Shown here in pieces: positions 5,752-38,590 of a DNA stretch of 38,590 nucleotides. Positions within the stretch are counted from its first letter, which is position 1. Each line of letters starts with the position of its first letter. Source of the stretch: Ignavibacteria bacterium (GTDB taxonomy: Bacteria > Bacteroidota > Ignavibacteria > Tepidaquicellales > Tepidaquicellaceae); the NCBI GenBank assembly GCA_019187405.1, contig JABAQZ010000035.1:1-38590 (forward strand), in the 5' to 3' direction. The notes below the pieces were generated by a model. It saw only the letters and a program-made list of their open reading frames with translations. It was not told where the DNA came from and ran no database searches. Made by a program: the position numbers and the translations under genes.

Positions 5752-5796
5752 TGTAAGTCGCTATTTGAGAATAAATAACGGCGATAAATGAGAATA
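5752..5796 (+). repeat. Prophage left (R-type) end with two transposase-type sites
   Basis: The end starts with TG at 5752. Site 1 is TATTTGAGAATA at 5762-5773 and site 2 lies in AACGGCGATAAATGAGAATA at 5777-5796, with the cores 23 bp apart. Both occur inverted at the right end of the element. Near-adjacent sites match the R1-R2 arrangement of Mu. Binding by the transposase encoded at 30643 is inference. Confidence 0.78.
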
Positions 5797-5853
5797 TCAC
5801 CCCTCGAATATAGCCTTTAAACGCAACATAAGATACTAAACGTATACGCCAAG

Positions 5854-12777: not shown

Positions 12778-15654
12778 TTATTTTTTTCTGTTGCCAATAA
12801 TTCTTTGAGTTCGCCTTAACGACACCTCAATATCATTTCCTTTCAGTTTATAATTTTGAACATACGGTATCTGGACTACCTGCGGCGCAGACAAGGTTTG
12901 GAATGCGGCTGAAAACCTCTCTACGAGTTTGTCAAGATTGCTCTGTCCGCCTATCGGCATCATTCTGCCAGGCGCAGCTCCTGAAGCGCCTCCACCACTG
13001 CTTCCGAAGCTAAATATTCCTCTCAATAAACCGAACAAGCCACCGCCGCCTCCACCACCCATGATCGCCGCCAATAATCCTGCGATACTGTTTACCAGGC
13101 TCACAGCATTCGATAATCCATTTATCAGTTTGCTTACAAATGTGTCAGCTCCAAGCCCGAGGATTTCTGCTATCCGCTGAGCCGAGACGAGTCCCTGGTT
13201 TAGTCGATCGTCAAAAGTGATTGCTTTCTCTTTTTTTTGTTTTTTCTTGTCAACTTTATTGATTTGAACATCCGGAGCTTCAACTTCACCAGGCTTAATT
13301 TTTATCCTTTTGTATTCGTTTAAAATATCAATGTATTTTTGAAGCTGTTCAAGCAAAAAATATCTTTCATCAAATCGTAAATCAGGACTTTGTAATTTCA
13401 GTTGAATGTCCGCGATAATATCTTCGGTCTCCTTAAGCTTTTTATTATACTCCTCAAGTAAATCAATTTTTTTCTTTTCCTCTTTTTCTGCTTCGTGCGA
13501 AGTTGATTTTTTTGTTTCACTTTTCGGAAGAGAGTTTATTATCGACTCCTGTTTTTTAAGCAATTCATCGTATTTGTTTATTATATCCTGTCCTTTTTTC
13601 ATTACTTCCGGAGCTCCGATTTGTTCTCCTACTTTAATTAGATTCTGCGCGAGCGTCAAAAGTTCAAATGCCTCGGATAATATGCTTGCCGAACTTGTCA
13701 ATGCTTTAAACCGGGTTAGAATATTAGACACCATGACAGAGACAGCATCATTTAGTGTATCAGCAGCTAACTTACTGTCTCCGAGATGCGCGCTCAAACC
13801 TTTGAACAGCTGATGTAAAGGAGCATTTTTAAAATTAGTTGAAAATAAATCGATAATTTTTTTCTGAGTGTCTTCGGCTGTTTTCGCTGTCTCCAGTAAT
13901 TCGGCTGATGCTGAGCTCAGATACCCTTCAAATGTTTCAAATGGATTTAGATTCCAGAAGAAGAACTCCTCTTTTAAAATTTTTGCTCCGTCCTTGAGCT
14001 TGTTATTTAACTCGTTAACCTCTTCTGACTGCTCGACATATTCTTCTGTTAAATTTGCTAACTCAGCAGCAATTGTCTCCGTTGCGGCATCTGTGTAAAT
14101 TTTAAGCTTTTCTTTCTCCTTCTCTATCAAGTCTGTTAAACCTTTTTCGTTTAAAGACTCAGCGCGAGTCTTACTGTCGATTCCGGAAACAACTTCCGGA
14201 TAAACCTGCTTTACCCGCTCAAGCGCAGCATTGTAATTTTCTTGCTCCTGCATTGTCAGCACCATACCGTTTTTGAGAGCTTCATTCACCGTCAACAACG
14301 ATTTAAGATTTTCTTCCTGCTCTTTGATCTTATCGTTTGACTCTTCCATAACAGAATTAATGTCACTTACGGTGGAGCTAACATCTGAGTAAGCTGAGGT
14401 GAAAGCAGCTGCGCCGGTTACAACAAGACCTATGAGCAATGGGAGTCCGCCGAGCGCTGTATTCATTACAACCAATTGTCCGTTTACGGCGATAATGCCG
14501 GCTGTTATCAGAGCCAAACCCCCGACAAGAATCTTAATAGGAGTAGGAAGTGCTATCATAAGTGCGTTGATAAGCAGAAATCCTTTTGTCGTAACGCTCA
14601 ATTGGCCGTTGAGTAGTGTGACAGCAGTAAGCACCGTCATAATTGCCAAAGCTGCAACTTTCATTTTAGGAGGTGCTTCTAACAAAAATTTATTAACCGG
14701 CATGAGGATAGTTACCGCTACAGAAGCCATTGTGGATACGATTCCACCAAATGCAATTTTGAGGTCATCAACAGCTTTGCTGAATCTAATTAAACCGCCC
14801 TGCGAGCTGTTCATTAGTTTATCTGCATTCCCCAGCTGTCCGTTTGTCTCCTGAATAATGCCGTTGAATATTGCCATTCTGATGCCCGCATCCTGCCCGG
14901 CTTTCATAAGGTCCTGCGCTTTGAACCCTGCCTCTTCAAGCATAATTGATAGGTTCTTTGTTACCCCGGCATTGTCAACGAGAATTGAATTCCCATTTTT
15001 TATGCCTTCGGTTGCTGACCTGACAGCGTCGCCAAAAGATAGCGACTCTTGTCTTCCGAATGCGGCACTCTCACCAAGCCGCCTAATGATTTCGGTCGAC
15101 TGTTCTAAAGTAAAATTTGCAGCTAATAAATTTTTAAATGCCGTCGATGCATCGGCAATAGAAAGCAGCCCGTTTTTTACAAGGTCAAGATTTTGCGCGA
15201 CGTCTTTGGCTTCATTTTTATCAAGTCCTTTAAAAACGGAAATTGATTCAAGACCCAGAAGCGCGCTTTGATATGAATTGAATTTCGTAAGATACTCGCT
15301 GAAAGTATTCTTCAGAATTTGAAGCACGGTTTGAATTCCCTGAAAGCGCAGGAACAAATTCTGCAGAGAGTCATTCAGTCTGAACGAGACTGTAGAAGAT
15401 TTCTGAAAGCTGTCGCCGAGCTTGTCGGTGGAAGTTGATGTTTGCTCTGCTTCGGAATTTAACTTAGATAAAGTCGTGTTAAGCTTATTTATCTCTGAAT
15501 CAATGTCTCCGGCTTTGAATGTCGGCGGCTGCAGCTTCATTAACTGCCCGGCGGATGTACTGAACATCCTGAGGAGATTCAGAGAGGTTTTGATCGACTC
15601 TCCTAATGGTTTGACGTCTAAAAAAAGCGATATTTTTAAATCTCCGATTGTCAT
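12778..15654 (-). CDS. Tail tape measure protein
   Basis: The product has 958 residues, the largest in the window. The N-terminal part has coiled coils (about 50-90) and a helical FRLNDSLQNLFLRFQGIQTV region. Long hydrophobic stretches follow at about 300-425 (ILVGGLALITAGIIAVNGQL), then charged coiled coils at about 430-780 and a Gly-rich hinge near 880 (MGGGGGGGLFG). This is the standard build of tape measure proteins, which set tail length and help DNA entry. At 1 residue per about 1.5 angstrom it predicts a tail near 140 nm, an estimate from the known length rule. It lies directly after the chaperone pair, as in lambda and many siphoviruses. Confidence 0.9.
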   Translation of the reverse strand: MTIGDLKISLFLDVKPLGESIKTSLNLLRMFSTSAGQLMKLQPPTFKAGDIDSEINKLNTTLSKLNSEAEQTSTSTDKLGDSFQKSSTVSFRLNDSLQNLFLRFQGIQTVLQILKNTFSEYLTKFNSYQSALLGLESISVFKGLDKNEAKDVAQNLDLVKNGLLSIADASTAFKNLLAANFTLEQSTEIIRRLGESAAFGRQESLSFGDAVRSATEGIKNGNSILVDNAGVTKNLSIMLEEAGFKAQDLMKAGQDAGIRMAIFNGIIQETNGQLGNADKLMNSSQGGLIRFSKAVDDLKIAFGGIVSTMASVAVTILMPVNKFLLEAPPKMKVAALAIMTVLTAVTLLNGQLSVTTKGFLLINALMIALPTPIKILVGGLALITAGIIAVNGQLVVMNTALGGLPLLIGLVVTGAAAFTSAYSDVSSTVSDINSVMEESNDKIKEQEENLKSLLTVNEALKNGMVLTMQEQENYNAALERVKQVYPEVVSGIDSKTRAESLNEKGLTDLIEKEKEKLKIYTDAATETIAAELANLTEEYVEQSEEVNELNNKLKDGAKILKEEFFFWNLNPFETFEGYLSSASAELLETAKTAEDTQKKIIDLFSTNFKNAPLHQLFKGLSAHLGDSKLAADTLNDAVSVMVSNILTRFKALTSSASILSEAFELLTLAQNLIKVGEQIGAPEVMKKGQDIINKYDELLKKQESIINSLPKSETKKSTSHEAEKEEKKKIDLLEEYNKKLKETEDIIADIQLKLQSPDLRFDERYFLLEQLQKYIDILNEYKRIKIKPGEVEAPDVQINKVDKKKQKKEKAITFDDRLNQGLVSAQRIAEILGLGADTFVSKLINGLSNAVSLVNSIAGLLAAIMGGGGGGGLFGLLRGIFSFGSSGGGASGAAPGRMMPIGGQSNLDKLVERFSAAFQTLSAPQVVQIPYVQNYKLKGNDIEVSLRRTQRIIGNRKK

Positions 15655-19980: not shown

Positions 19981-20490
19981 TTACTTGCTTTGGTAAAGTT
20001 TATCCGCGCCGGGGATCGAGAAGATTTCTTCATTTGTAAATTTCTTTGCGAATGAAGGATCCTTTTCAACCTTAGCGAGGAACTGATCATAATTCATTTT
20101 AGTACCGTCCTCATTTGAAAATTTGTCATCTCTGTTTCCAGATGGATCAACCACTTCTTTGTCCGCTGGGGAAACTTTATTTTTTTGATCGAATGCAGGA
20201 TTGACCGGCATTTTCTCAATAACTTTTTTTGTTGCTTCGAAACTTGAGTTAAGCAGAGTTTCATAAGTCTCTTTGTCTGCAGGTAAGATCCTTCCGGACT
20301 CCAGTCCGAAGTTTAACACAGATGTGACTCTCTCTGCCCTTAATGATTTTACTTCATCTTCGAGTACAGAATTTCTCGATGACAGCTTTGAAAACTTTTC
20401 AATAGCCTGCCGTGATATTGCTTCGTCCGTGGCATGAACATTCACGTCGATCTCAAATACGGTCGCAAGCTTTGTTAGAATAGGATCCAT
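19981..20490 (-). CDS. Possible nested scaffold protein (Mu gpZ-like internal start)
   Basis: An in-frame ATG at 20490 opens MDPILTKLATVFEIDV and covers the helical, charged 169-residue C-terminal part of the protease gene. In Mu and lambda the scaffold is made from an internal start in the protease gene. No Shine-Dalgarno sequence is visible, but this host group often lacks one. It is a prediction by analogy. Confidence 0.42.
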   Translation of the reverse strand: MDPILTKLATVFEIDVNVHATDEAISRQAIEKFSKLSSRNSVLEDEVKSLRAERVTSVLNFGLESGRILPADKETYETLLNSSFEATKKVIEKMPVNPAFDQKNKVSPADKEVVDPSGNRDDKFSNEDGTKMNYDQFLAKVEKDPSFAKKFTNEEIFSIPGADKLYQSK

Positions 20491-21036
20491 CGTTTTGGTA
20501 TTTTGATTTTGAAAAAAGAATTTTTTAGATGAGGCTGTAAAATCTTTCGCGATCTCGGCTGTGAATCTCTCATCGATCGGACAGAATACAGAATGCCCTT
20601 TTGCCATTGTAAAATTTTGACCTTCGAATTCAAGCGGTTTTTGTCCGGATACTTTCGGAAGATTTGTTGCTCCGAGTGCTACCTGGTAATCGTTATCGAT
20701 TCCCATTACCCTACCGAACTCACAGGATACATATAAATATTTTTTGTCCTGAACTGCTTTCACAAAATTCTCATCGATGTATTCGAATGAATTGAAAAGC
20801 ATCTTGCCCTCGAATTTTGATTTTGCAATCCAGCCTTCAGCAGGCGCGCCTGAATACCACGGGTGACCGATCCAAAGCGGAGCCTTGTGAACTTTTGCAT
20901 CGTAAGCGTCCGATACAGATTTAACCCAGTCTTTCTTTACTTCAAAAGTCGTCCACTCATTATGCTCCCAGTCATAAGTAGGAAAACTTCCGGCGGTAAA
21001 GACATGATAGAATTTATTCTTGTCGGCTTCAATCAT
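19981..21036 (-). CDS. Prohead protease / scaffold (Mu gpI-like)
   Basis: The product has 351 residues from the ATG at 21036. A TTG 18 codons upstream (21090) would add residues with no homolog-like character, so the ATG is chosen. The first 180 residues (HVFTAGSFPTYDW, PLWIGHPWYSGAPAEGWIA, CEFGRVMG, ALGATNLPKVSG) match the Mu-like protease type, where a GHP-type block and a C-terminal TNxP motif recur. The C-terminal half is charged and helical (SRNSVLEDEVKSLRAERV), typical of scaffolds. It matures the prohead and guides capsid assembly. It precedes the capsid gene by 75 bp and is the first gene of the leftward late module. Confidence 0.8.
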   Translation of the reverse strand: MIEADKNKFYHVFTAGSFPTYDWEHNEWTTFEVKKDWVKSVSDAYDAKVHKAPLWIGHPWYSGAPAEGWIAKSKFEGKMLFNSFEYIDENFVKAVQDKKYLYVSCEFGRVMGIDNDYQVALGATNLPKVSGQKPLEFEGQNFTMAKGHSVFCPIDERFTAEIAKDFTASSKKFFFQNQNTKTMDPILTKLATVFEIDVNVHATDEAISRQAIEKFSKLSSRNSVLEDEVKSLRAERVTSVLNFGLESGRILPADKETYETLLNSSFEATKKVIEKMPVNPAFDQKNKVSPADKEVVDPSGNRDDKFSNEDGTKMNYDQFLAKVEKDPSFAKKFTNEEIFSIPGADKLYQSK

Positions 21037-21207
21037 TTGAAAAATATATTTATGGTTTAGATATACTTTTGTGTATAACTGTGAGAGCAAAAATAATTTT
21101 ATATTCGCACTAATAAAATAGCCTAAGTTCTAATTGAAGCATTTAGGGTTTTTTGCATAATTACGCGTTTCGGAATTTTATATTTTTGTGTTACATAAAT
21201 ACAGGCA
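21037..21207. promoter_or_regulatory. Divergent promoter region of the two late modules
   Basis: This 171-bp region separates the leftward protease gene from the rightward gene at 21208. TATTTTTG, which fits the Bacteroidota -7 element TAnnTTTG, occurs on the plus strand at 21181-21188 and on the minus strand at 21095-21088. A clear -33 TTTG at normal spacing is not evident on either strand. No operator palindrome was seen. Confidence 0.38.
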
Positions 21208-21612
21208 ATGGTAAATCTAAATACAGTACTGGAAGATCTCATTGAATTCATAAAGGCTGCGCTTGCTTTTCGACACGTTCAGGAATATTCAAACGAGTAT
21301 GAAGGTGACACCGGTAACTGGACTGAAAAACATCCGAGCTGCTTTGTCGAGGTGAACGGATTTTTCCCGGTCTCAAAAGATTCCGAAAAAAATACTGCAG
21401 CATCGAGAATTGATTTTTTACTTTTGATAGCAAACAAAACTACAGCAGTTAAACATCCGCTTCAGCTTGTCTCTGAATTACTCTCGGCTCTTGAAGGTCA
21501 GGAATTTGTCTATCCGGATGCGATCTATTATGCCCGTTTGAAGTCAATTAATTTGTTTGCCCGTGACAGGGATCTAAAAGTTTATGCCCTGAGATGTGAA
21601 CTTACGCTATAA
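21208..21612 (+). CDS. Mu gp37-like (DUF1834-like) tail completion protein
   Basis: The product has 134 residues and is soluble. It starts MVNLNTVLEDLIEFIKAALAF, then PSCFVEVNGFFPVSKDSEKN, SRIDFLLLIANKT and a LYALRCELTL-type ending. An N-terminal helix followed by a beta sheet with a final strand resembles gp37/tail terminator proteins (DUF1834). Gene gp37 lies next to gp36 in Mu; here gp36 is 2.2 kb to the right, across the non-coding centre and the portal gene. It is the first rightward gene at the divergent promoter. The family assignment is tentative. Confidence 0.5.
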   Translation: MVNLNTVLEDLIEFIKAALAFRHVQEYSNEYEGDTGNWTEKHPSCFVEVNGFFPVSKDSEKNTAASRIDFLLLIANKTTAVKHPLQLVSELLSALEGQEFVYPDAIYYARLKSINLFARDRDLKVYALRCELTL

Positions 21613-21765
21613 CATGAGTTAACAATATAATTTTTCAGTGTTGGATTCCAGCTTGGAATTAAGGTTTTTTAGAGTTTTTTTCACAAAAGTGAAACGAAAT
21701 CAGGCAAAAAAATTAAAGAAATGCTAAAAACGACTCATAAACAAAGGTTCTTTTCAAAATAGGTA

Positions 21766-21804
21766 GTTAACAAAGCGTTAACAAGTGTTCCCTCAGTGTT
21801 AACA
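21766..21804 (+). repeat. Phased GTTRACA array 1
   Basis: GTTAACA starts at 21766, 21777 and 21798, and a degenerate GTTCCCT at 21787. The steps are 11, 10 and 11 bp, one helical turn, so all units face one side of the DNA. A lone GTTAACA lies at 21618. Confidence 0.7.
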
Positions 21805-21842
21805 CCATATCACGCAAGGGGAAAATTTCGGGACAGTTTTAA

Positions 21843-21858
21843 CGCTATTTGAGAATAA
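21843..21858 (+). repeat. Central copy of the prophage end site
   Basis: CGCTATTTGAGAATAA is identical over 16 bp to 5759-5774 at the left end and has the same orientation. It lacks the TG dinucleotide that stands 10 bp outside the site at true ends, so it should be bound but not cut. It may act as an internal enhancer for transposition. Confidence 0.68.
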
Positions 21859-22006
21859 CTAACATGAAAAAATGCATTTATGTAAAGAAATCAAACATTG
21901 AACTTTTTGTCAGTCGTTTTAGGTCGGAAACTAAAAAAAAAAAAAAATAACTATTGCGGAGTTTCAGCGATATTTTAAACTTTTTTGGAAACTGATTAGT
22001 AAAAGT

Positions 22007-22076
22007 GTTAACAAAGTGTTGACAATCAGTTGCGGAAGCGTTGACAAAAATCCCTTTTTTGTTAACATCGTTGACA
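22007..22076 (+). repeat. Phased GTTRACA array 2
   Basis: Units start at 22007 (GTTAACA), 22018 (GTTGACA), 22029 (GTTGCGG, degenerate), 22040 (GTTGACA), 22061 (GTTAACA) and 22070 (GTTGACA). The first four are exactly 11 bp apart; the fifth is 21 bp on and the sixth 9 bp. It looks like a cooperative protein-binding array. Confidence 0.72.
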
Positions 22077-22113
22077 AAGTACCGAGTGGTATAGTGTCTC
22101 GCCTCTGCCTTAA

Positions 22114-22144
22114 ATCGCCCGTCCTGACGCATTTATGAGCGAAT
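22114..22144 (+). repeat. Central copy of the 31-bp left-end element
   Basis: It matches 5854-5884 at 24 of 31 ungapped positions, with TCCTG, CGCATTT and GCGAAT conserved. With the site at 21843 it repeats the order and orientation of two left-end elements, but at wider spacing (271 bp instead of 95 bp). Confidence 0.5.
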
Positions 22145-22311
22145 CGGGTTTTCAAAAAAATCTTAGAAAAAGTTTAAATATGGCTTACAAATGCACGATT
22201 GTTTTTAAGATGTTCAAAAAATCAACTTTTTAATAAATTTCCACTGATCTTCCTATAATATGGTTTGATAAAAAGTTCACATGAAAAAAACACTATTAAA
22301 AACACCAAATT

Positions 22312-23772
22312 ATGTATAAACCAAGCGGAAACATTTTTAAAAATATTTTTTCAATAGTTAAGAATGAAATTTCCGGAAAGCTAAGGCCCAAAGAATTTTC
22401 AGCTTCAGGAATATCAACGCATGATCCAAACTACATGTATGATATCTACACACGCGAATTCTCCGGAATGAAATCACAAAATCTCTTGAACTACATCGAC
22501 TGGGCGCGGCGCGGTATCCCGTTTTATTTTTTTAAATACTTCGATACAATTTCCAAACGTGATACAAGGATACGCACAATGCAAAGAAAACTGAAAGCTG
22601 CAATACTCATGGAGCAATTTACAGTAACCGGTGAGTGGGCAGAAGGAGTTAAGTTTGCTGAGCTTCTGATCGAACATCTCGGAGTCGCACTGTCTAAATT
22701 TTTCACGAGTGCCATCGAAGCAAACGAAACAGGCATTAAGCGTTTTGAAATTAATTATGAATTGAAAAACGGTTACTGGCTGCCGTCAGAGATAAGAGCA
22801 ATTCCAAACTTCTTATATCTCTATGATGAGAACACGAGAAAATATTCTTTTCTCAATGTGGATCTATTTGACCAGGTTAAACTCAGATCTAACCTTACTG
22901 CCTTCCCTGACAGAATAGACATCTCAAAATTTCCACAGGTAGAAGTTCATCCTTTAAAAATACTTGACGTACATGCGATCGACGGAGATCATGACAACGC
23001 ATTCATGAACGGGATCGCCATAGCACTATCCTTTGCAAACTATTGCAAGAATTATAATGTAAAAGACATGAACATATTCTTAGAGCGATGGGCATCACCC
23101 ACAACTAAGATGAAATATGATCCTCTTAATGCTCAGTCAAAGGATGAGCTTGTCAAAGCGGCTGACGGCGCAAAGACACACGGCACTTATATCTATCCTG
23201 ATGGCACTGAAATTGATTTGTTAAACGATTCTCAAAAAGGACAGGCGGGAAATCTGTATCTGTCGGCAATAAGTTACTGGAATTCTGAAATAACAATTCT
23301 TTACTCGGGTGAAGAAGAAACAACGCAGATGGGAGAGAAGGGATCGCTTGCAGCATTGAAGGTAAAAGAAAAAATTTCAGAACTTATACTTCAGATGAAT
23401 CTTAAGACTTGCGAGAATGCATTCAGCAGCCTTCTTCATCGTTTAATTGTGATTAATTTTTCATCACCCGGCAAACTTCCGCATTTCAACTATATTAAAA
23501 TATCAACCCTTGAAGACAAAAAACTTCAGTCCGAAATAAATAAGAACTTAAAAGACATCGGTGTGCTTCCGACACACGAAGCTTTAGAGGAGCAGTTTGG
23601 GGTTGATCTCGAAGATGTCGAAACTCCAGAGCAACCCAACGAAGAAGATATTGATGACAACGATGAAGAAAAGATAGACGGCAACGAAGACGAAGAAGCA
23701 GAAGAAAATACTTACGAATCAAATTATCTTGAAAAAATATTTTTTGAAGCGGGGAAGGAGGCCGCTAAATAA
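22312..23772 (+). CDS. Portal protein (Mu gp29-like, DUF935)
   Basis: The product has 486 residues, near the 510 of Mu gp29. DUF935-like features are an N-terminal FSGMKSQNLLNYIDWARRG, then DTRIRTMQRKLKAAILMEQFTV (about 77-98), a central IEANETGIKRFEINYELKNGYWLP (about 136-159), HPLKILDVHAIDGDHDN and GSLAALKVKEKISELILQMN (about 344-363). The C-terminus is very acidic (DDNDEEKIDGNEDEEAEEN, about 450-470). Twelve copies form the channel at the capsid vertex. It opens the rightward head module after the non-coding centre and is followed by gp36 after 1 bp. Confidence 0.88.
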   Translation: MYKPSGNIFKNIFSIVKNEISGKLRPKEFSASGISTHDPNYMYDIYTREFSGMKSQNLLNYIDWARRGIPFYFFKYFDTISKRDTRIRTMQRKLKAAILMEQFTVTGEWAEGVKFAELLIEHLGVALSKFFTSAIEANETGIKRFEINYELKNGYWLPSEIRAIPNFLYLYDENTRKYSFLNVDLFDQVKLRSNLTAFPDRIDISKFPQVEVHPLKILDVHAIDGDHDNAFMNGIAIALSFANYCKNYNVKDMNIFLERWASPTTKMKYDPLNAQSKDELVKAADGAKTHGTYIYPDGTEIDLLNDSQKGQAGNLYLSAISYWNSEITILYSGEEETTQMGEKGSLAALKVKEKISELILQMNLKTCENAFSSLLHRLIVINFSSPGKLPHFNYIKISTLEDKKLQSEINKNLKDIGVLPTHEALEEQFGVDLEDVETPEQPNEEDIDDNDEEKIDGNEDEEAEENTYESNYLEKIFFEAGKEAAK

Positions 23773-30642: not shown

Positions 30643-32586
30643 ATGATTGAACTAAGTGAGTATCTTGAACTAAAGGAGATTGGCAGGAGAGCGTTTTACT
30701 ACCAATTAGAGCAGAAAAAAATCTTTAAGAAGGAAATTGGCGGAGTTACGTTTGTAATAGATCCGGAGTTAGAGCTCTCGGATGATACGAAACTCGCTCT
30801 TAAAGAACAGGTAAACCGTGAGCTGGGGCTGCTCGCTATTAAAGCTCATGCATACCGTCCTAAAGATCTTGAGGAAGGCAAGCGATTCCGGTGTAAGGAG
30901 ATCAATAAGATAGTCGCTCAAATGGTCGAAACTGTTAATGCCTGGAAGAAGCGCGGTGTGAAACTGCGCGGATGGTCAAAAGCAGCATGCTACAGAAAGA
31001 TCGAAGACACGTCCAACCTTAAGAGGCAGAGAAGAAGTGACATTTTCGCAAATAAAAATCCTCAATTAGCTAATCCTGCCGTTTATGAAAAATTTAAATC
31101 TCTTTACTATCTGCAATATGATAATAATAAAGCCGAACGTCCATCGCTTAGGACGATCTGCGAGAGAATGATAATGTATGCACAAAAGAGGGAAGAATTC
31201 TATGAAATAGCTTCTATACCGTTTTCGACAGTTTACGATAATGTCCGAAAACTAAATGACAGATTTGCTCATTCCTTAGTGCATCAGGCAAAAAACAATC
31301 TCAGCCACTTGATGAAAAACCGTGTTTATGTCGAGGGGGCATTCACAGCCGACATGGGATTTATGGAATGGTATGCAATGGATGATCACGTGATGGAAGT
31401 AGACGGCGCACTTGTTTATAATAAAGTCAAAGATGAATGGGAAAAGAGAAAGGTTTACTTATGGACAGTTATAGAGTGCAAAACGTTTTATCCAATCGCT
31501 TATCACATCCAGACGGACAATTTCAATTCTGACGACATCAAACTACTAATGCTAAAAGCATTGATGAACACCGGCAGACCGGTCAAAGGCATACTGATGG
31601 ACAACGGTTTAGCCTCTTCGAAAAAATGTCAGGAGTTTCTTAACCGGCTTGGGATCGTCCACGACTCAGGCAAAGCTTATGACTGGATGCACAAAGCAGT
31701 ACAGGAAAGAATATTCGGATTTGTGAAAAATGAGTTCTGCACAGAGTGGAATAATTACATCGGCGGAGGAAGATCTGAAGTCCGCCACACCGGAGAGAAG
31801 ATGTCACCTGAGCTCTGTGACTATACAATTGATGAGTTCATTTCAAAATTCGACGATTACATGGAGGGCTTTTATCAGAGAAAACCAAGAAGCAGAACGG
31901 ACAATTACGAAAAGATTGAAATTTCAATTCGTGAAGATTTTGAAAATAGATATTTATATTACGAACCGCAATACTTAGACCCTGTAAAGCTAAGATCCGC
32001 ATTCATGGTAAGTAAGGTGGCATATATGTCATTACAGCATTTGTCACTCGGCAACTTCGGTGTCTATACTGTCGATTTGGATAACCTGCTTGATCCTGTC
32101 CTTCAGGAAAGAAATTACCTCTGTACTTACATTCCACTCGATCTGTCCGAGATCGATATCTACGCAATGGAAGACATATTAATCCAAAAGACAGGCGAGA
32201 TGATCTTAAAAGGCGAGCGGGTCGCTACGCTGTATAGAATGCGCGAGAAAATGCCTGAGGCAAAACGCAAAGACGTTGCAATCTTGAATAACAAAAATCT
32301 TAAGCTTATCCGAGCCTATGCAGAGAATACTGTCAACATTGCAATTGCCGAAAACTTCAGCTCATTTTCACCAGAGTTAAATGAGAAAGGGCAGTTGACA
32401 GATACAAGGAAACTGCTGACGGAAAAAACAATCTCGATCATGAAGGATGCTGAATTCAAAGCTAAGGAAGTTATTATCCCTGAGCAAAAGAAACGAGGGC
32501 GTAAAGCTTCAGAGGAGATCGCAGAATTGAGCCATGAAGAGATCGAAAATATAGACGCAATATTAAAGTCAGGAGATTATGAGTGA
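30643..32586 (+). CDS. Transposase (MuA-like, DDE family)
   Basis: The product has 647 residues, close to the 663 of MuA. A small DNA-binding region lies at the start (about 12-40) and helical site-binding domains at about 85-220. The RNase H-like catalytic core follows: Asp247 or Asp248 in YAMDDHVMEV, Asp320 in GILMDNG and Glu355 in VQERIFGF. Asp320 and Glu355 are 35 apart, tighter than the MuA spacing (336 and 392). A Mu-type C-terminal beta-barrel and tail (about 440-647) follow. It cuts at the TG/CA ends and joins them to target DNA for integration and replication. It overlaps the next gene by 8 bp. Confidence 0.93.
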   Translation: MIELSEYLELKEIGRRAFYYQLEQKKIFKKEIGGVTFVIDPELELSDDTKLALKEQVNRELGLLAIKAHAYRPKDLEEGKRFRCKEINKIVAQMVETVNAWKKRGVKLRGWSKAACYRKIEDTSNLKRQRRSDIFANKNPQLANPAVYEKFKSLYYLQYDNNKAERPSLRTICERMIMYAQKREEFYEIASIPFSTVYDNVRKLNDRFAHSLVHQAKNNLSHLMKNRVYVEGAFTADMGFMEWYAMDDHVMEVDGALVYNKVKDEWEKRKVYLWTVIECKTFYPIAYHIQTDNFNSDDIKLLMLKALMNTGRPVKGILMDNGLASSKKCQEFLNRLGIVHDSGKAYDWMHKAVQERIFGFVKNEFCTEWNNYIGGGRSEVRHTGEKMSPELCDYTIDEFISKFDDYMEGFYQRKPRSRTDNYEKIEISIREDFENRYLYYEPQYLDPVKLRSAFMVSKVAYMSLQHLSLGNFGVYTVDLDNLLDPVLQERNYLCTYIPLDLSEIDIYAMEDILIQKTGEMILKGERVATLYRMREKMPEAKRKDVAILNNKNLKLIRAYAENTVNIAIAENFSSFSPELNEKGQLTDTRKLLTEKTISIMKDAEFKAKEVIIPEQKKRGRKASEEIAELSHEEIENIDAILKSGDYE

Positions 32587-33212: not shown

Positions 33213-33407
33213 ATGGGTGAGAATTATAAGGCGATCGCATTTGCCTACAGAGATTACAAGCGGAGGAGAAAGCTTAATTACCGGAGAAAGCATGGTTTTA
33301 GAAGATTTCTTAAACTTGTCGGACTGATATTATTCATCGCAATAATAATATGGCTCATTCACGACACAATTATATATATATTAGAGAGTTTAGAGAGAAA
33401 TGTTTAA
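33213..33407 (+). CDS. Small basic single-pass membrane protein
   Basis: The product has 64 residues. A basic N-terminus (about 10-33, YRDYKRRRKLNYRRKHGFRR) is followed by one transmembrane helix (about 35-57, LVGLILFIAIIIWLIHDTII). The positive-inside rule puts the N-terminus in the cytoplasm. It overlaps the next gene by 8 bp. Function unknown; early membrane proteins of phages often act in exclusion. Confidence 0.6.
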   Translation: MGENYKAIAFAYRDYKRRRKLNYRRKHGFRRFLKLVGLILFIAIIIWLIHDTIIYILESLERNV

Positions 33408-33933
33408 AGGATATAAATCAGAGCGTGCTTATTACAATGCTAAGATACACGGCATGGCTTGTATAATTTATTCTGAGGGTGCGGACGACTTTCTGAGGGA
33501 AAGCATCACACAAATTATAAATCGCCGGCCGGCATCACTGCTATTTGAGAATAAGAATAGTGATGGGGGTGTTTCAAGCTTGACGGATCAGGAGGCTAAA
33601 AGCTTCTTCAATGAATTACTGGCTGTCACGAAAAGAGTGAAGGCAAACATGGAAACAACCGGTGCGCTGCTTGGAGTCAAAACTAATCAAATGACAGATG
33701 TTCAGCGCAAGAAAATAATAAAGCTTACCCGCTATATATTTAAATGGTCAATCGATGTAAGCTTTTCTAAGATCACCGAATATTGTCCAGATCTTCTCAA
33801 ACGTCTCACAACCTGGCAAATAAAGAATACAAAGATTCAACCTCTATTCAATTTAATCAGCCGCACTCAGGCGGATCATATAATCAAAATTCTCGAACAG
33901 ATCGAGAAAAGGAATAAGAATGAAAAAAATTAA
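33400..33933 (+). CDS. GemA-like early protein, first paralogue
   Basis: The product has 177 residues. The C-terminal part (about 98-175) starts MTDVQRKKIIKLTRYIFKW, then YCPDLLKRLTTWQI and HIIKILEQIEKRN. It is clearly related to the product of 36028-36432, which has MTDAQHKKIIALFTNELGW, TCPDIINRL and KIINVL in the same order. The pattern resembles Mu GemA (gp16-like), which modulates host gene expression and DNA gyrase-linked functions. The first 95 residues are unique to this copy. The coding sequence contains an exact 15-bp copy of the prophage end site at 33540-33554. Confidence 0.58.
   Translation: MFKGYKSERAYYNAKIHGMACIIYSEGADDFLRESITQIINRRPASLLFENKNSDGGVSSLTDQEAKSFFNELLAVTKRVKANMETTGALLGVKTNQMTDVQRKKIIKLTRYIFKWSIDVSFSKITEYCPDLLKRLTTWQIKNTKIQPLFNLISRTQADHIIKILEQIEKRNKNEKN
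33540..33554 (+). repeat. End-type site GCTATTTGAGAATAA inside a coding sequence
   Basis: It is identical over 15 bp to 5760-5774 and 21844-21858 and has the same orientation. It encodes LLFENK in frame here, so chance is possible, but a 15-bp match is not expected at random in 38 kb. Confidence 0.45.
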
Positions 33934-35810: not shown

Positions 35811-36046
35811 TGGCAATTGAATTTACAGGATCGTCGGGCAATTGGCAATTGCAACCAGGCGACATACTTGTTTTTAAATTTTCAGAGAAAACTATTCTGA
35901 AAGGATTAGTGAAAAAAGTTTTTAATAGTAAAGCCCTCGTTCAAATCGGTGAGGGTGAGGGAAGTTTTTTAATGAAAGTTAAAAAGTGTTCTATGATTTC
36001 AGCAGAGCAGGCGAAAGAGAATAATCAGTGGCTAAGGATGACATAA
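35810..36046 (+). CDS. Small early hypothetical protein
   Basis: The product has 78 residues and is beta-rich (GDILVFKFSEKTILKGLVKK, ALVQIGEGEGSFLMKVKK), like a small SH3-type barrel. It overlaps the next gene by 19 bp. No family is recognised. Confidence 0.6.
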   Translation: MAIEFTGSSGNWQLQPGDILVFKFSEKTILKGLVKKVFNSKALVQIGEGEGSFLMKVKKCSMISAEQAKENNQWLRMT

Positions 36047-36432
36047 AGCAACAGGATTGGTTTGAGTTTGACAAGCTGATGGAAGAATTCGGACGCTCTT
36101 TAATAACAAATCCTTCGCATAATTTAGACATAGAGATCAAGCGTCACATATACGGTCCCGACAGTATGACAGATGCACAGCACAAAAAAATAATTGCATT
36201 ATTTACAAACGAACTCGGCTGGGGATCATATCATGCATTCAAATTCATGCTGAGGACATGTCCGGATATAATAAATAGACTTAGGCAACAGGCATTAACC
36301 GAAACAGACCTGAGAGAACTCTATAAGGTCATTAAAAAGAAAGAGGCGAGTAAAATCATAAATGTCTTGAGTGCTATTAGTAAAAGGCGAAAATTAAAAA
36401 ATCGGATGATGGAATTCATTAAATTCAGTTGA
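36028..36432 (+). CDS. GemA-like early protein, second paralogue
   Basis: The product has 134 residues from a GTG start that overlaps the gene before by 19 bp. The core (about 49-125) has MTDAQHKKIIALFTNELGW, TCPDIINRLRQQAL and ASKIINVLSAISKRR. This matches the C-terminal half of the protein at 33400-33933 and the general pattern of Mu GemA-type proteins. It is the last gene before the right end. Why two copies exist is unclear; a duplication with divergence is likely. Confidence 0.6.
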   Translation: MAKDDIKQQDWFEFDKLMEEFGRSLITNPSHNLDIEIKRHIYGPDSMTDAQHKKIIALFTNELGWGSYHAFKFMLRTCPDIINRLRQQALTETDLRELYKVIKKKEASKIINVLSAISKRRKLKNRMMEFIKFS

Positions 36433-36692
36433 TTAGTATTGCACTTTTGCACTGAACAGCAAAAACTAACTGCACTGCACTAACCCCAGCTTTAAAAATA
36501 AATCAAAATTAAATTATTTGCGAATCGATTAGTTGAGTTTGATAGGTTATTCTCATTTATCGTCGTTAAGTGGGTTGAATTTCTTTTTATTTTTGCGGAT
36601 TTTCGCCAAATATATTCTCAAATACCGTTGTTCAATAGTATATTTAAAAACAAATTTTATATTATTTCAAAAAATTTATTACGGAGGAAAAC
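36433..36692. other. Right prophage end and junction with host DNA
   Basis: This 260-bp gap holds the right end of the element up to 36634 and then 58 bp of host DNA before the next start codon. Repeats of TGCAC occur at 36441-36480. I see no gene in it. Confidence 0.6.
36548..36634 (-). repeat. Prophage right (L-type) end with two transposase-type sites
   Basis: Read inwards on the minus strand the end starts with TG (36634-36633). Site 1 is TATTTGAGAATA at 36624-36613 and site 2 is AACGACGATAAATGAGAATA at 36567-36548. Site cores are 65 bp apart, compared with 23 bp at the left end, like the spaced L sites of Mu. The 8 nt between TG and site 1 are AACAACGG. Confidence 0.78.
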
Positions 36693-38375: not shown

Positions 38376-38425
38376 TGATCAATGATCAATGTTCAATTGT
38401 ATTATTAAGTTTGCTAATGTTTAGA
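38376..38425. other. Short spacer after the T9SS gene with AATGATC repeats
   Basis: AATGATC occurs twice, followed by AATGTTC and AATTGTA, directly after the stop codon. It looks like a diverged start of the tandem repeat that follows. No terminator hairpin was seen. Confidence 0.4.
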
Positions 38426-38590
38426 ATTGCACATTGTAAATTGTAAATTGCACATTGCACATTGCACATTGTAAATTGCACATTGTAAATTGCACATTGT
38501 AAATTGCACATTGTAAATTGCACATTGTAAATTGCACATTGTAAATTGCACATTGTAAATTGCACATTGTAAATTGCACATTGTAAATTG
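38426..38590 (+). repeat. 7-bp tandem repeat (ATTGCAC / ATTGTAA), continues beyond window
   Basis: There are 23 full 7-bp units and 4 further bases to the window edge, with no interruption. Two unit types, A = ATTGCAC and B = ATTGTAA, are arranged A B B A A A B and then strictly alternate as a 14-bp period. The total length cannot be seen. Confidence 0.95.

Follow-up and report, generated by a model that had tools for sequence, protein, structure and literature searches.

Among prophages of 30–40 kb, Mu is the only one in which the mechanism of end pairing is established, and it requires a central gyrase site. The transposition enhancer of Mu (IAS) contains phased short repeats and overlaps the operators, some 1 kb in from the early end; it bears no resemblance to the end sites. 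The central Mu site promotes synapsis of the ends and is needed for their timely pairing, and its location at the centre is important (PMC10052514); the existence of such central sites in other transposable phages has been stated to be unclear (PMC8705779). The Leptospira transposable prophages share with the prophage described here a MuA-type transposase and, in some of them, TG–CA ends; their transposase was reported to be without an enhancer-binding domain, and central sites were not studied there (PMC8705779).

We examined a window of 38,590 nucleotides (the whole stretch of DNA that was analysed), which includes a Mu-like transposable prophage, W, of 30.9 kb at 5752–36634, as judged from its genes, ends and homologues, within an Ignavibacteria-type host (Table 1). 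A leftward operon opens with a Mu I-like protease and closes, at the left end, with a DNA methyltransferase, and a rightward operon runs from the portal to the large terminase, followed by the repressor and the early genes, with the transposase, up to the right end. Head genes of Mu type (portal, F, protease) and Gam are present. The transposase model matched the MuA transpososome (4fcy) and TnsB with E values of 1e-10 to 1e-11, and PF02914 was found in relatives; a gene for an ATPase of MuB size was absent directly after the transposase, where the open reading frames up to 33400 have 122 aa or fewer. Homologues were obtained from the related genomes G003, G017, G022, G034, G035 and G014 (four of these six are Ignavibacteria or Bacteroidetes MAGs in public records), from G498, and from six IMG/VR contigs: V591 (3300050581_000215), V592 (3300050334_000022), V593 (3300035661_000306), V594 (3300050581_000112), V595 (3300048576_000580) and V596 (3300016722_000145). 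The transposases of W and its distant relatives are about 30% identical. A search with the transposase among named phages gave no match, and therefore no cultured relative is known; a search of the available literature returned no papers on Mu-like prophages of Ignavibacteria. The open reading frame 33400–33933, which we take from its position and homology to be GemA/DUF1018-like, is related to that at 36028–36432, which also matches the G003 homologue of the first; the two are possibly GemA-like paralogues.

Table 1. Coordinates of features of prophage W within the window (bp; strand where assigned).
Feature	Position	Strand	Remarks
Left (tail-side) end	5752–5797	+	TG at 5752–5753
Left end sites L1 and L2	L1 5759–5774; L2 5782–5797		L1 CGCTATTTGAGAATAA; L2 CGATAAATGAGAATA; 23 bp apart
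Mu I-like head maturation protease	19981–21090	-	leftward operon
134-aa gene, gp37-like by position	21208–21612	+	homologues in relatives
Central non-coding locus	21613–22311		between gp37-like gene and portal gene; place conserved in relatives
GTTRACA iterons, first cluster	21766–21805		three copies, spacing 11 and 21
End-type (transposase-type) site at centre	21843–21858	+	identical to L1
GTTRACA iterons, second cluster	22005–22080		five copies, spacing 11, 22, 21, 9
Block downstream of array	22101–22146		includes 31-bp element
Mu-type portal protein	22312–23772	+	PF06074, 7e-41
DDE transposase, MuA/TnsB type	30643–32586	+	model matches and homology
Third internal copy of L1 (15/16)	33539–33554	+	inside ORF 33400–33933
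Right (early-side) end	36547–36634	-	terminal CA 36633–36634
Right end sites R1 and R2	R1 36612–36627; R2 36547–36562		65 bp apart

Each end of W was found to have two sites, and L1 has 12 bp in common with the right-end site 36612(-). The several transposase sites per end and their asymmetric spacing are like those of the Mu ends (L1–L3, R1–R3), from which the W ends differ in the number of sites found, in the distances between them (23 bp on the tail side, 64–65 bp on the early side) and in sequence. Sites 23 bp apart are again seen at the tail-side ends of G035, V591, V593 and V595, and sites 64–65 bp apart are present at the early-side ends of G035, V592, G498 and G003, in each case with different spellings; the ends of the metagenomic contigs were inferred from this layout. 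Further contigs with the two-site pattern ended before any centre, and no transposase gene was present in the stretches of them that were examined. The 5 bp flanking W outside TG 5752 and CA 36633 (ATTAT vs ATAGT) are not identical, and the target duplication is not clean.

Every relative with a transposase module and a readable centre has a non-coding locus of 358–699 bp just upstream of the head operon; the capsid relatives G006 and G018, which gave no transposase match, have only 18–26 bp at the corresponding spot. Where both ends are known, the iteron array within the locus lies at 51.9–52.9% of the element in W (30.9 kb), 49.6–50.1% in G035 (30.8 kb) and 50.5–51.4% in V593 (25.5 kb), and the arms of V591 and the near-identical V592 measure 13.7–13.8 and 13.5–13.6 kb; the phages compared are few, partly related and in several cases incomplete, and syntenic genomes do not give independent positions. 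Elements of 25.5, 27.3 and 30.9 kb all keep the locus central. It is also central in V593 despite different neighbour genes, and in V595/V596 and G498, where the early module (repressor, transposase, Gam) flanks the head block on the opposite side; in V595, 13.8 kb separate the locus from the tail-side end and 12.8 kb or more from the other end, the left end being just outside the contig.

The locus resembles the strong gyrase site of Mu (SGS, NC_000929, ~17879; gyrase cut site at 48.7% of Mu) in being central, in occupying a short non-coding gap near the head and protease genes, and, for the lineage taken together, in its phased DNA; it differs from the SGS in having exact phage-specific iterons and, in several phages, an added transposase end-type site. 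A consensus search found no end-type site at the Mu SGS, where the best candidate has 8 mismatches in 21. The initial annotation of the window had proposed an internal enhancer comparable to the IAS. An internal, central site is supported; its position is unlike that of the IAS, since the array is only central and away from the repressor region, and closer to that of the SGS, which had not been considered. We favour, with a probability of about 0.55, the reading that this cis-acting locus at the physical centre is a central synapsis locus, combining an SGS-like position, phased DNA and a putative transposase-binding site. It comprises short helically phased non-coding DNA, usually with phage-specific iterons, to which several phages add a copy of their own end site; it would most likely function at the apex of a prophage loop, either ahead of transposition or in its course, and would promote pairing of both ends as the SGS does.

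The phased iteron locus, absent from the initial annotation, is a more general feature than the end-type site. The iteron word is specific to each phage: GTTRACA in W, GTTGAAT in V591, TGGACA in V593, TATAACTAA in V594, AAGTTTTGTAA in G034, TTTTCGGAA in G014, AAGTTTCCT in G498, AAGTGACAAA in G035, and two unrelated 15–16-mers in two G003 prophages; both orientations occur in V594 and G003. G017, whose central contig is missing, contributes none. Repeat density exceeded that of composition-matched shuffles (p=0.024 for G035, p=0.002 for the others), and by the same measure V595 and V596 have no significant array. Adjacent iterons are spaced by multiples of 10.5 bp (39 spacings from ten different iteron sequences, R=0.87, mean angle -0.03); the Rayleigh p of ~2e-13 is overstated, as spacings within an array are not independent and the words were picked by eye. 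The iterons were not found in any number elsewhere in the same phage, including the repressor/ner region and other promoters, and a role as repressor operators was rejected on this ground. The two similar G003 prophages (L041 380–909, L042 380–923) have nearly the same central flanks, yet their iterons differ completely, which looks like an exchange of the array.

Phasing was also assessed from AA/TT steps at 10.5 bp, normalised for composition, with the maximum ranked over the sequence examined for each phage. The peak fell at the locus in 7 of 11 cases (V591, V593, V594, V595, G034, G003a, G014), and the locus ranked second in W, G035 and V596; the value was not significant for W alone (p=0.24), whose iterons are nevertheless spaced in phase, nor for G498. 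The Mu gyrase site scored at the 99.7th percentile on this test, and the matching gaps of D108, D3112 and B3 at 97.6–99.7. Together with the central position and the 10.5-bp spacing, this would fit a gyrase site like the SGS, in which the phased DNA wraps on gyrase, the sequence of the iterons is of secondary importance and W carries its end-type site only incidentally; AA/TT phasing at or near the maximum in V595/V596, which have no significant array, points the same way. We hold this alternative to be possible and give it a rather low probability, because the exact repeats of 7–16-bp words, which in V594 and G003 run in both orientations, point to a sequence-specific protein, and because the end-type sites of W, V595/V596 and G035 are left unexplained by it.

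The locus could instead be a control region of the late operon, with iterons that bind a late activator or repressor and a centrality that follows from equal arm lengths. It does always lie upstream of the head gene operon (rightward in W), and phased arrays are common in promoters. We nevertheless consider this doubtful, since the centre is kept over the range of element lengths given above and whichever side carries the early module, the divergent start of W is at a distance of 650 bp, the iterons are not at other promoters of the same phage, and the end-type sites again find no explanation.

The end-type site had been reported in the initial annotation as 16 bp of the left end that recur in the centre in left-end orientation. 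The copy of CGCTATTTGAGAATAA is indeed exact and on the same strand, the match extends to 20/21 with the next five bases, and the terminal TG is missing beside it as had been stated, with TTTTAACGCTATTTG there instead. Among 400 order-2 Markov versions of the interior, 0.5% shared a 16-mer with either end and 2.8% a 15-mer, which confirms the copy as real and beyond chance. An end-site profile run over the whole window picked out only L1, L2, R1, R2, the central site (22.2 bits) and a copy at 33539 (18.9 bits), the next score being 13.0; the copy at 33539, which the initial annotation did not list, sits in a stretch that is not conserved in homologues.

The centres of W and its relatives were tested with profiles made from each phage's own ends, shuffles matched to the composition of each centre serving as the control. 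The top-scoring site there gave p<0.0005 in W, V595, V596 and G035, p=0.006 in V594, p=0.046 in G003a and p=0.07 in V593; it was not significant in G014, G498, V591 and G003b, and V592 had none. As W prompted the test, independent support comes from V595/V596 (one lineage) and G035. The V595 and V596 centres contain CACGCTATTTGAGAAAAG, and the same 21 bp, TTTTCACGCTATTTGAGAAAA, are present at V595's own tail-side end; the block around the site is conserved between the two. The G035 centre has a 17/19 match to its own, differently spelled end site. Relative to the portal and tail-side end, the site has the same orientation in W and V595/V596; that of G035 overlaps the presumed portal start and is opposite. 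In agreement, sliding windows over each genome found that the rest of W, V595 and V596 has no site as good, and that G035 has one. The proposal of an internal transposase-type site at the centre, for which alignment of related centres had been suggested as a check and end-less centres named as the adverse outcome, is thereby borne out in V595/V596 and G035 and not in V591/V592, G498 and G014, which keep the locus without such a site. In V593, an end-type site (CGGTATTTGAGAAAAT) is found at the start of the terminase gene (contig position 14254(-)), ~1.1 kb from the central array.

An end copy that arose by chance or is neutral, with no role, would agree with the 15-bp copy at 33540 inside a gene and with the several relatives that have no central site; it is unlikely in view of the 0.5% frequency in shuffles and the recurrence in V595/V596, within a conserved block, and in G035. 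A fossil end left by the fusion of two elements, put forward initially also to explain the inverted modules, is very improbable: the divergent modules do meet near the centre, but the same divergent order holds across the lineage, there is no TG end and no second transposase, only one of the two tail-end sites is present, and elements of different length all keep the locus at their physical centre.

Within the reading as a central synapsis locus, the end-type site would be a third contact, bound by transposase at the apex, a feature not seen in Mu. A fuller version, in which a phased iteron code is read by an N-terminal winged helix of the transposase, the end-site copy is bound as well, and a left–centre–right complex pairs the ends, is offered tentatively. 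The iterons might also be bound by another phage protein or by gyrase. Residues 1–70 of the W transposase form a winged helix-turn-helix in the predicted model; Foldseek gave no significant structural match for this domain, MuA domain I-alpha included, and its identification with I-alpha was rejected. The domain is a candidate reader of the iterons because it is an extra N-terminal domain compared with the Leptospira enzymes, which are reported to be without an enhancer-binding domain (PMC8705779), and because it is the most diverged part of the transposase between V595 and V596 (46% vs 72–87%). Phased short repeats, an internal site for a proposed transposase contact, and a transposase with a predicted extra N-terminal winged helix would be points of likeness to the Mu IAS system. 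A change of iteron between V595 and V596 was discarded as proof of co-variation, as the AACTTA count in V595 was not above shuffles; therefore only the N-terminal divergence stands. Phages with weaker arrays tend to have stronger end-type sites, and those with stronger arrays weaker ones (Spearman 0.71, p=0.03 for nine phages; 0.76 for eleven), a pattern that fits two ways to recruit the same protein and is suggestive only. By keeping a recognisable central locus, whether or not a copy of the phage's own end site is part of it, a lineage such as this one provides a sequence-level test of end pairing and points to a possible role of the transposase itself at the centre.

A second supposed copy from the left end, the 31-bp element at 22114–22144, does match the region inside that end at 24/31 ungapped; with p=0.04 for the 253 x 699 bp comparison, and nothing comparable in four relatives, it was not accepted as a left-end copy. 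The block that includes it has a small inverted repeat (CGCATTTATGAGCG) and resembles, as judged by eye, blocks (GGCTTAAAACGGCTC..GAGCGAAAAT) in relatives; in several of these a similar block, ending in GCGAAAAT, follows the array. Outside the prophage, the host DNA to the right of W carries tandem repeats of ~17 bp (ATTGTAAATTGCACATT) at 38410–38590, and the V591 element appears to interrupt another phage's amidase-like gene (~6171 of the reversed contig, L073).
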